Of a DNA stretch of 64,000 nt, positions 26,897-29,612 are shown piece after piece. A model generated the notes under the pieces. It worked only from the letters and a program-made list of their open reading frames with translations. It was not told where the DNA came from and did no database searches. Position 1 is the first letter of the stretch, and each line of letters opens with the position of its first letter. The translations under genes were made by a program, and so were the position numbers. Where the stretch lies: assembly GCA_013041925.1 (NCBI GenBank), contig JABDRB010000011.1, positions 62,001 through 126,000 of the forward strand, read 5' to 3'. Origin of the DNA: Akkermansiaceae bacterium. GTDB taxonomy: Bacteria; Verrucomicrobiota; Verrucomicrobiia; Verrucomicrobiales; Akkermansiaceae.

Positions 26897-27541
26897 TCAA
26901 ATTCCGAGAATATCGACAAACGGCCATGCCTCGATCTCATCCTGATCACGGATCACGTCCATCAGCACAGGCACCCCGGTCAAGTCCTCGGCTATCCCCT
27001 TGTTGGTAATCGCCGCAGTATCCAGCTCATCGGCAAGATGGTTAAAAATCAACCCGGCAGGCTCCACACCGATGGCTCGCATCGATTGCACCGTGAGCAT
27101 CGTCTGGTTCAGCGCACCCAGCCGATTCCCCACCACGAGGATCGTGGGAAGTCCGAGGTCCCTTGCCAAATCAGCCACCATGTAATCTTTTAAAATCGGC
27201 ACTAACCATCCGCCCACTCCCTCAGCGATGACGGCTCCGTATTCCTCGCCGAGCTCGCGACACCCTTGGAGGATCGTCTCCACTTCAAGGTCTCGGTTTT
27301 CAAACATCCCCGCCACATAAGGCGCCGCGGGCGTTCTCAGATAACACGGGTTCACCCGGTCAAGCTCTACGGAACCACCCGACGCATTCTGCAGTGCGTA
27401 GGCGTCCTCGCGTCCACCGCAGCAGATCGGCTTATACCCCACCGCATCCACCCCCTCAGCACGTAATGCCTTGATAATCATTGAGGTCACATACGTCTTC
27501 CCCGCCCCAGTATCCGTCCCAGTTATAAATAGTCCTTTCAT
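26897..27541 (-). CDS. bioD: dethiobiotin synthetase
   Basis: 214 residues. ATP-dependent carboxylation and ring closure of 7,8-diaminopelargonic acid in biotin synthesis. The P-loop GTDTGAGKTYVTS is the BioD form; KPICCG, the EGVGGWLVPI block (Mg/phosphate contact) and VVGNRLGALNQTMLTV follow in order. It is the only biotin gene in the window; bioA/F/B must lie elsewhere. It follows the cdaA pair and precedes the acetyltransferase gene. Confidence 0.94.
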   Translation of the reverse strand: MKGLFITGTDTGAGKTYVTSMIIKALRAEGVDAVGYKPICCGGREDAYALQNASGGSVELDRVNPCYLRTPAAPYVAGMFENRDLEVETILQGCRELGEEYGAVIAEGVGGWLVPILKDYMVADLARDLGLPTILVVGNRLGALNQTMLTVQSMRAIGVEPAGLIFNHLADELDTAAITNKGIAEDLTGVPVLMDVIRDQDEIEAWPFVDILGI

Positions 27542-27604: not shown

Positions 27605-27757
27605 CTACTTCACCTTCACGCTCGGCTTGGTGACCCCCTGGTTCTCAGTTTTAATAATGTAATCAATCAGAAACCAGATCGCGATCGCCACCATCAAGGT
27701 CGCTAACTTCGCGGGCCAGTTCTTCTTCAATACGCTCTTGTTTAGCAGGTTCTTCAT
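27605..27757 (-). CDS. one-TM microprotein resembling the CdaR/YbbR membrane anchor, overlapping cdaA
   Basis: 50 residues: MKNLLNKSVLKKNWPAKLAT then a hydrophobic helix LMVAIAIWFLIDYII (16-35) and a short polar tail. The NWxxKLxxLxxAIxxWFxI pattern is that of the N-terminal anchor of CdaR/YbbR, the membrane regulator of CdaA; the YbbR domains are absent. An exceptional SD, AAGGAGG, lies 6 nt before the ATG and inside the cdaA reading frame. The first 31 codons overlap the last codons of cdaA in another frame. Position, SD and anchor pattern together support a real gene; the CdaR relation is an inference. Confidence 0.7.
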   Translation of the reverse strand: MKNLLNKSVLKKNWPAKLATLMVAIAIWFLIDYIIKTENQGVTKPSVKVK

Positions 27758-28514
27758 GAGTTTCCTCCTTCGGTAAAAATATCGCCTCCATACGCTTGCG
27801 GAAATCATCAAGGCTCAGGTTCCGCTCCAATCGTCCATTCACACAAATCGATATCTGACCCGTTTCTTCGCTCACCACGACCGCCACCGAGTCGGTCTCT
27901 TCGGTCACTCCAATCGCAGCTCGGTGACGCAGACCCGTACTCCGGTCTGACAACTCACGGGAACTCACAGGAAAAACACACCCGGCACCAGCCACCCGAT
28001 TCTGGGCAATGATCATCCCTCCATCATGCAACGCCGTCTTAGGGTAAAATACGGTAAGCGCAAATTCCGGAGAAAAAACAGCATCCAGTTCCACCCCCGT
28101 TTCTAAATGCTCTTTAAGAGAAATCGACCGCTCAAATGCAATCAAGGCGCCGATCCGCTTCTTCGCCAACTGCCCGACCGCCTCTGCCATCGTATCCAAA
28201 AATTCATGCTTCTGCGTCTGCGAAAAAGAAAACAGCTTACTACTCCCCAACCTCGCCAAGGCATTCCGTAACTCAGGCTGGAAAATAACCAGCAACGCAA
28301 CCGCAAGACCGACAAGCAACGACTTCAACAGCCACCAAATAACTTGTAACTCCAACACCAAAGACAACAGGGACAAACCCATCAGCAACAAAATCAAACC
28401 GACCAAGATACTCGCACCGCGCGTTTTTTTGAACGCACGGTAAATCTGATAGAGACCAAACCATAAGATCAATACCTCGACACCTGCACGCCAATGACTA
28501 CTGAGAAAATCCAC
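27663..28514 (-). CDS. cdaA: diadenylate cyclase CdaA (c-di-AMP synthase)
   Basis: 283 residues from a GTG at 28514 (VDFLSSHWRAGVEVLIL), which matches the usual N-terminus of CdaA; the open frame upstream runs into nrnA and is rejected. Three membrane helices (11-27, 37-57, 60-77) are followed by the DAC domain from about 95. It makes c-di-AMP from two ATP. The catalytic motifs are present but altered: ALHDGGMII has D-G-G where D-G-A is usual, and GLRHRAA carries RHR (196-198). The tail (250-283) is acidic and its DNA also encodes the start of the CdaR-like microprotein. Divergent from nrnA. Confidence 0.93.
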   Translation of the reverse strand: MDFLSSHWRAGVEVLILWFGLYQIYRAFKKTRGASILVGLILLLMGLSLLSLVLELQVIWWLLKSLLVGLAVALLVIFQPELRNALARLGSSKLFSFSQTQKHEFLDTMAEAVGQLAKKRIGALIAFERSISLKEHLETGVELDAVFSPEFALTVFYPKTALHDGGMIIAQNRVAGAGCVFPVSSRELSDRSTGLRHRAAIGVTEETDSVAVVVSEETGQISICVNGRLERNLSLDDFRKRMEAIFLPKEETHEEPAKQERIEEELAREVSDLDGGDRDLVSD

Positions 28515-28637: not shown

Positions 28638-29612
28638 ATGAGTGAAAATACTACCTTTGCAGAAATCGCCGACGCCATCCGCGCACACGACTCCTTTATC
28701 ATCCTCAGCCACCTTCGCCCCGACGGCGATGCCATCGGCTCCCAGATCGCCCTCGGCCACGCGCTCGAGCAGATGGGGAAAACCGTCCACTATATCAACG
28801 AGGACGGCCTGCCCGACAACCTGACTTTCCTTCCCGGTAGCGACAAAATTCAAACCCCACCAGCTGACCCGCTCGACGTTCAGGTCGCCATTGCACTCGA
28901 TTGCGCCACCAAACCACGCCTCGGCGACCATGCCCTACACGCGGCCTCCAACGCCAAGCTCTGGATCAACATCGACCACCATGTTTCCAACCCCAGCTAC
29001 GGTGACCTCAATCACATCGATGCCACATCTCCCGCCACCGGACAGATTCTCTACAACCTAATTACCGAACAGGACTTTCCGTTCTCAGACGAAACCCGCG
29101 ACTCGATCTACGTTGCCGTCTCCACCGATACCGGATCATTCCAGTATTCCAACACCACCGCCGCGACCTACGAAATGGCCGCTGACCTCGTCAGACGCGG
29201 CACTGACGTCGGAACCATCAATGCGCTGACCTACGACAACAACCCCTACCGCCGCATCGAACTCCTCCGGTCACTGCTCAACACCCTCGAACTGAATGAC
29301 CATGGTAAAGTCGCGCACTGGGAACTGCCAAACTCCGTCAAAAAGCAATACCACCTCAAACCCGAAGACAGCGAAGACCTCATCGACCTCATCCGCGGCA
29401 TCGAAGGCGTTATCGTCGCAGCCTTCTTCGAGGAGCTTCCCGATGAAAAAATACGCGTCTCACTCCGTGCCAAAGACAGTTCAGTGAACTGCAGTGAACT
29501 CGCCCAACGCTTCAAAGGTGGTGGCCACGCCCGCGCCGCTGGCATCCGCATGCCCGGCCCCCTCGCCGACGCCCGCAGCCAAGTTCTCGCCGCCATCAGC
29601 GAAGTCCTGTAG
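28638..29612 (+). CDS. nrnA: DHH/DHHA1 phosphodiesterase, NrnA-like oligoribonuclease/pAp phosphatase
   Basis: 324 residues, normal for NrnA, which degrades nano-RNA and hydrolyses pAp and pApA. DHH domain: ILSHLRPDGDAIGSQIAL (motif I), VAIALDCATKPRLGD (motif II), INIDHHVSNPSYGD (DHH motif III), VAVSTDTGSFQYSNT (motif IV). DHHA1 domain ends with FKGGGHARAAGIRMPG. It is divergently transcribed from cdaA with 123 nt between the starts, and is followed by truB and prfA on the same strand. Its role in clearing pApA from c-di-AMP breakdown is plausible. Confidence 0.93.
   Translation: MSENTTFAEIADAIRAHDSFIILSHLRPDGDAIGSQIALGHALEQMGKTVHYINEDGLPDNLTFLPGSDKIQTPPADPLDVQVAIALDCATKPRLGDHALHAASNAKLWINIDHHVSNPSYGDLNHIDATSPATGQILYNLITEQDFPFSDETRDSIYVAVSTDTGSFQYSNTTAATYEMAADLVRRGTDVGTINALTYDNNPYRRIELLRSLLNTLELNDHGKVAHWELPNSVKKQYHLKPEDSEDLIDLIRGIEGVIVAAFFEELPDEKIRVSLRAKDSSVNCSELAQRFKGGGHARAAGIRMPGPLADARSQVLAAISEVL

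Follow-up and report, generated by a model that had tools for sequence, protein, structure and literature searches.

Does the short open reading frame (ORF) that begins inside the 3' end of cdaA in an Akkermansiaceae bacterium represent a gene, and what would its product be to the cyclase encoded around it? The window, by which we mean the whole stretch of DNA that was analyzed, has a length of 64,000 nucleotides, and the features that matter to this question are as follows.

27605..27757, minus strand: putative anchor-only CdaR microprotein, 50 amino acids, sequence MKNLLNKSVLKKNWPAKLATLMVAIAIWFLIDYIIKTENQGVTKPSVKVK
27764..27770, minus strand: Shine-Dalgarno sequence AAGGAGG, 6 nt ahead of the microprotein ATG at 27757
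27663..28514, minus strand: cdaA, CdaA-type diadenylate cyclase (CdaA_N + DAC), GTG start at 28514, C-terminus ...DLVSD-stop
27663..27757, minus strand: overlap of cdaA and the microprotein frame, 95 nt (31 full codons), in cdaA's +1 frame
26897..27541, minus strand: bioD-like gene (PF13500, AAA_26), next downstream of the microprotein
28638..29612, plus strand: DHH-DHHA1 gene (NrnA/DhhP-like), divergent from cdaA

The product of the overlapped gene was identified as CdaA by PF02457 (8.6e-38), PF19293 (1.1e-6), and TIGR00159, all above their cut-offs, and both the CdaA_N transmembrane (TM) domain and the DAC domain were present. As the sequence-only reading had claimed, a near-ideal Shine-Dalgarno (SD) sequence (27770..27764, gap of 6 nt) precedes the ATG in a window where most starts have none, and this ATG opens a 50-residue frame whose first 31 codons overlap cdaA out of frame: no 4-nt SD match was found at the first start of 40 of the 48 long ORFs in the window, and only five of them had any nearby start with a match of at least 6 nt. 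Since the word AAGGAGG was not enriched in the window (10 occurrences vs 8.25 expected), the SD by itself would prove little. It was common to the window's species and its closest relative (L002), and was weak or absent in most others. The RNA structure at the microprotein start codon was unremarkable (z=+1.0), and no c-di-AMP riboswitch was found in this genome. In the cdaA-cdaR-glmM operon of Firmicutes, glmM lies beside cdaR, whereas the window locus has no adjacent glmM. The DHH-DHHA1 gene and cdaA were ~120 nt apart, an arrangement kept in 13 fetched loci, all from the window's genus; its product is a possible c-di-AMP or nano-RNA phosphodiesterase. In 73 fetched loci a bioD-like gene lay close to cdaA, and cdaA, the anchor gene, and bioD may therefore form an operon that is perhaps old.

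A match to the 50-residue protein was found in 86 of 98 related genomes (E<=1), at least two of the weaker ones being spurious (G061 and G080), and ~80 were confirmed to adjoin cdaA. In all of the 30 best loci cdaA was located directly upstream, and, except where the assembly precluded a call (L004 has Ns inside cdaA), the microprotein ORF was in the +1 frame of cdaA. Beyond these 30, ~190 further loci were fetched. Behind or overlapping cdaA, a short ORF with a one-TM anchor was present in ~140 fetched loci; nearly all of these belong to Verrucomicrobiota, a few occur in two collections, and their ORFs had the motif NW..K...L..A...W..I in common. Of the 135 loci in which the ORF overlapped or adjoined cdaA, 131 had an ATG at the anchor, most often 11 residues ahead of the conserved K. 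The extent of the overlap with cdaA varied from none to 134 nt, being usually 4-134 nt, and the motif was kept in ORFs with no or barely any overlap or in another frame (L048, L069, L080, L090, L105, and L116). Since the ORF is conserved across related genomes, it is beyond chance, and by these comparisons the 50-residue frame is a genuine gene. The sequence-only reading had looked to conservation of both the overlapping frame and the SD in relatives; the frame was indeed conserved, whereas the SD was not, a match of at least 5 nt being present at the anchor ATG in just 22 of 131 loci, by which a strong SD as the key conserved feature was ruled out.

The two frames of the overlap were then compared by codon position, using a 42-nt core from 48 distinct sequences and counting the differences between all pairs (which are not independent of each other). 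At microprotein codon positions 1, 2, and 3 (corresponding to cdaA positions 2, 3, and 1) there were 4944, 2334, and 7235 differences, respectively, such that the wobble position of cdaA was the least variable within the core. As a control, a DAC stretch outside the overlap was taken from the same cdaA genes; its counts at cdaA positions 1, 2, and 3 were 6932, 3989, and 24716, respectively. Nearest-neighbour pairs agreed with the all-pairs comparison (58, 28, and 134 at microprotein positions 1, 2, and 3, respectively). At the amino acid level, identity in the overlap was 0.64 in the microprotein frame vs 0.44 in the cdaA tail. The recurrent CdaA ending LVSD-stop corresponds to W-F-L-I-[DNK] in the microprotein frame, and the codons for I-[DNK] create the stop codon of cdaA. 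These patterns indicate purifying selection on the second frame, with the C-terminus of CdaA as its passenger.

What the product is related to was suggested by profile comparisons. By hhalign, the microprotein profile matched that of 19 CdaR N-termini with a probability of 98.2% (P=3e-14, 42 columns), whereas the first TM of CdaA itself, as a control, reached 28%; the microprotein profile also retrieved the N-termini of full CdaR proteins encoded directly behind cdaA in other lineages. For example, CdaR from Veillonella atypica, with three YbbR domains, starts with MIHLKRNWPAKILSLLAAIVMWFFI, and the counterpart in the window protein is KKNWPAKLATLMVAIAIWFLI. The same place behind cdaA is occupied by CdaR with YbbR domains in other lineages of the phylum, Firmicutes, Planctomycetota, and Omnitrophota. 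In the 50-residue protein, no YbbR was matched by Pfam; none was found in the window genome even at E<=10, by which a full CdaR elsewhere in this genome was ruled out. Among the 98 genomes of the window's order no YbbR was above the cut-off, compared with 133 of 241 genomes in the sample of the phylum, and none was found downstream of the anchor-only loci. No model of Pfam or NCBIfam matched the 50-residue protein, and a profile search of the PDB gave no match.

The match to CdaR anchors, the same position, and the absence of YbbR together indicate that the window gene is a CdaR cut down to its anchor, and the assignment of its product as a CdaR remnant retaining only the membrane anchor is well supported by these comparisons. 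The earlier description of the product, a one-TM microprotein that resembles CdaR and lacks YbbR domains, was thus borne out, also by a natural fusion to CdaA (see below). Since the feature that defines CdaR, YbbR (PF07949), is missing, the best name is an anchor-only relative of CdaR, which probably acts like the membrane part of CdaR. The reduced form resembles CdaR/YbbR of Firmicutes in being directly behind cdaA and in having an N-terminal charged segment and one TM with the motif NW..K...L..A...W; it differs in its size (35-150 amino acids without YbbR vs ~320-500 with extracytoplasmic YbbR) and in that it usually overlaps cdaA. Short CdaR proteins are likewise found behind cdaA in some Omnitrophota and Verrucomicrobia (L206, L207, and L208), but these retain one YbbR domain, which passes the Pfam cut-off in two and is below it in L206; they look like intermediates of the reduction.

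In a tree of CdaA, in which the support for deep branches was moderate and some branches were long, 63 rows formed a Verrucomicrobiia clade whose members were all anchor-only, fused, or anchorless, and the remaining rows mostly had full CdaR. At least four changes between the reduced and YbbR-bearing states were required. Separate reductions were placed at L121/L122 (family f35), at L211 (Omnitrophota), and perhaps at L235; the anchor-only ORFs of L121, L122, and L211 stand outside the main clade and are apparently independent. In-frame fusion of the anchor to the C-terminus of CdaA was found in Verrucomicrobium (L093, L094, and L159, the last being Verrucomicrobium sp. BvORR106) and in L107; it arose at least twice, the tree placing two origins (Verrucomicrobium and L107). 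L107 (G188), a single genome from another genus of the window's family, had no ATG, GTG, or TTG in the 40 codons preceding the anchor. In a third fusion, L147 (G310), an extra tail of ~100 residues extends beyond the anchor; it appears YbbR-like by eye, and Pfam gave no match in it.

CdaA is also found without the anchor ORF, in family f3 of the window's order (nine loci), as well as in L187, L205, and one f2 genome. Universal co-occurrence of CdaA and the anchor was therefore ruled out, and the anchor is dispensable in family f3, where CdaA can function in its absence. Loci L239-L247 and L251, from family f3 and G080, all lack the anchor ORF behind cdaA, and the f3 proteins have a recurrent C-terminal tail, e.g., (S/T)TKRLEA-stop. 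In the sample of the class, the anchor occurred with TM-type CdaA, and no credible anchor was found in the inspected genomes that lack this type and have a soluble PTS_EIIA-DacZ_P-DAC protein alone. TM-type CdaA is missing from several families of the class, which possess instead this soluble protein of ~455 amino acids with PTS_EIIA_2, DacZ_P, and DAC (L148-L157; Pfam on one example), which suggests a sugar-phosphotransferase-linked cyclase. It is an even bet that the following wider history applies: CdaR would act on CdaA via its single TM helix, and everything but this helix would have been lost, first close to the root of the Verrucomicrobiia CdaA clade and independently in other places (L121/L122 of f35 and L211 of Omnitrophota), with the start then hidden inside cdaA or the helix fused to the cyclase, leaving 45-50 amino acids as a minimal intramembrane modulator of c-di-AMP synthesis.

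How such a helix could act is suggested by published work on the full-length proteins. CdaR has been reported to contact CdaA in its TM region (PMC8573169, PMC6368335), this binding reportedly occurs through the TM domains of both proteins (TMD-TMD interaction; review PMC10243994), and CdaA and CdaR are naturally fused in some streptococci (PMC10243994). As in these streptococcal proteins, the cyclase and the TM of CdaR are on one polypeptide in Verrucomicrobium and L107; the latter fusions differ in comprising the anchor only, without YbbR. Two AlphaFold2 models of the natural Verrucomicrobium fusion gave helices and no contacts that would inform on packing; in one of the two the anchor helix was predicted with confidence. 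Small proteins with a single TM that attach to a larger membrane protein and tune it are exemplified by KdpF and AcrZ. The microprotein is proposed to act likewise with one TM helix on a larger membrane partner, and differs in descending from a larger regulator; no sequence relation is claimed.

Our preferred reading, to which we assign a probability of about 0.74, is that the window carries a reduced CdaR gene with its own start inside cdaA, whose helix sits on the membrane domain of CdaA and assists assembly or stability, or tunes activity. The microprotein would consist of the N-terminal positively charged segment of CdaR and its single TM helix, the extracytoplasmic YbbR part being lost. 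Because translation would begin within the 3' end of cdaA, production of the partner would be coupled to that of the cyclase in place and time; since most relatives have no strong SD, ribosomes already translating cdaA may be needed for initiation. The anchor helix, most likely oriented N-in/C-out, would pack against the N-terminal membrane domain of CdaA, like the TM of full CdaR, and once bound would help the cyclase to assemble or remain stable, or tune its activity. Translation, topology, CdaA binding, and the direction of the effect on activity are what we infer here, the binding and the effect by analogy with the published TM-TM interaction of CdaA and CdaR. Since the contact with CdaA would be kept and the outside sensor is lost, an intramembrane subunit that assembles, stabilizes, or tunes CdaA is favoured.

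Among other explanations, a decaying and functionless leftover of CdaR, retained only through its overlap with cdaA, would fit the loss of the YbbR domains and the lack of the ORF in f3 and a few others. This is unlikely, because the overlap conserves the microprotein frame and not the cdaA tail (the identities of 0.64 and 0.44 given above), and because the anchor is conserved across families, in non-overlapping copies, and by fusion. A small membrane protein whose task is unrelated to CdaA, for example one tied to the downstream bioD, appears quite improbable: the bioD-like sequence near cdaA in the 73 loci speaks for it, but no such sequence was found near the anchor in most loci of Verrucomicrobium, Prosthecobacter, and Chthoniobacterales (where the flanks were short), and the link to CdaA itself includes fusion and the company of TM-type CdaA rather than of the soluble cyclase in the class sample.

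A +1 frameshift near the end of cdaA, yielding mainly a CdaA-anchor fusion rather than a free microprotein, would account for the ORF being almost always in cdaA's +1 frame, and genomic CdaA-anchor fusions do exist. We consider it very improbable, since the ATG is conserved (131/135 loci) and, in 31 of 131 loci, the microprotein frame is open for no more than five codons ahead of it; furthermore, several loci are non-overlapping or in another frame, the window has its near-ideal SD, and inspection by eye revealed no conserved slippery site. Chance has next to no probability as an explanation: the 95-nt overlap might lend an accidental frame the conservation of cdaA, but the profile matches CdaR anchors, and the codon-position pattern together with the non-overlapping homologues ruled out such a shadow. 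The reduced CdaR with its own start inside cdaA thus remains the reading that we prefer.

The arrangement had been taken as previously undescribed, and this was contradicted neither by Pfam or NCBIfam nor by the papers searched on CdaR/YbbR and on c-di-AMP in Akkermansia or Verrucomicrobiota, which contained no description of an anchor-only CdaR and gave no Ribo-seq or peptide evidence for this gene; subscription papers were mostly outside this search, and the negative is therefore not proof of absence. Because no Pfam or NCBIfam model matches it, this conserved gene beside a second-messenger enzyme is probably absent from the annotations of many Verrucomicrobiota. Published accounts of the control that CdaR exerts on the essential cyclase CdaA conflict: it has been described as an activator or a repressor (PMC8573169), and as a negative regulator in Porphyromonas gingivalis (PMC9259658). 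In a natural CdaR consisting of the TM helix only, which also occurs as a fusion with the cyclase, the intramembrane portion is set apart from the sensory YbbR portion, and this question becomes testable with a protein of 50 amino acids. If the proposal is true, a helix of 45-50 amino acids would be a minimal modulator of c-di-AMP synthesis across a major bacterial phylum.
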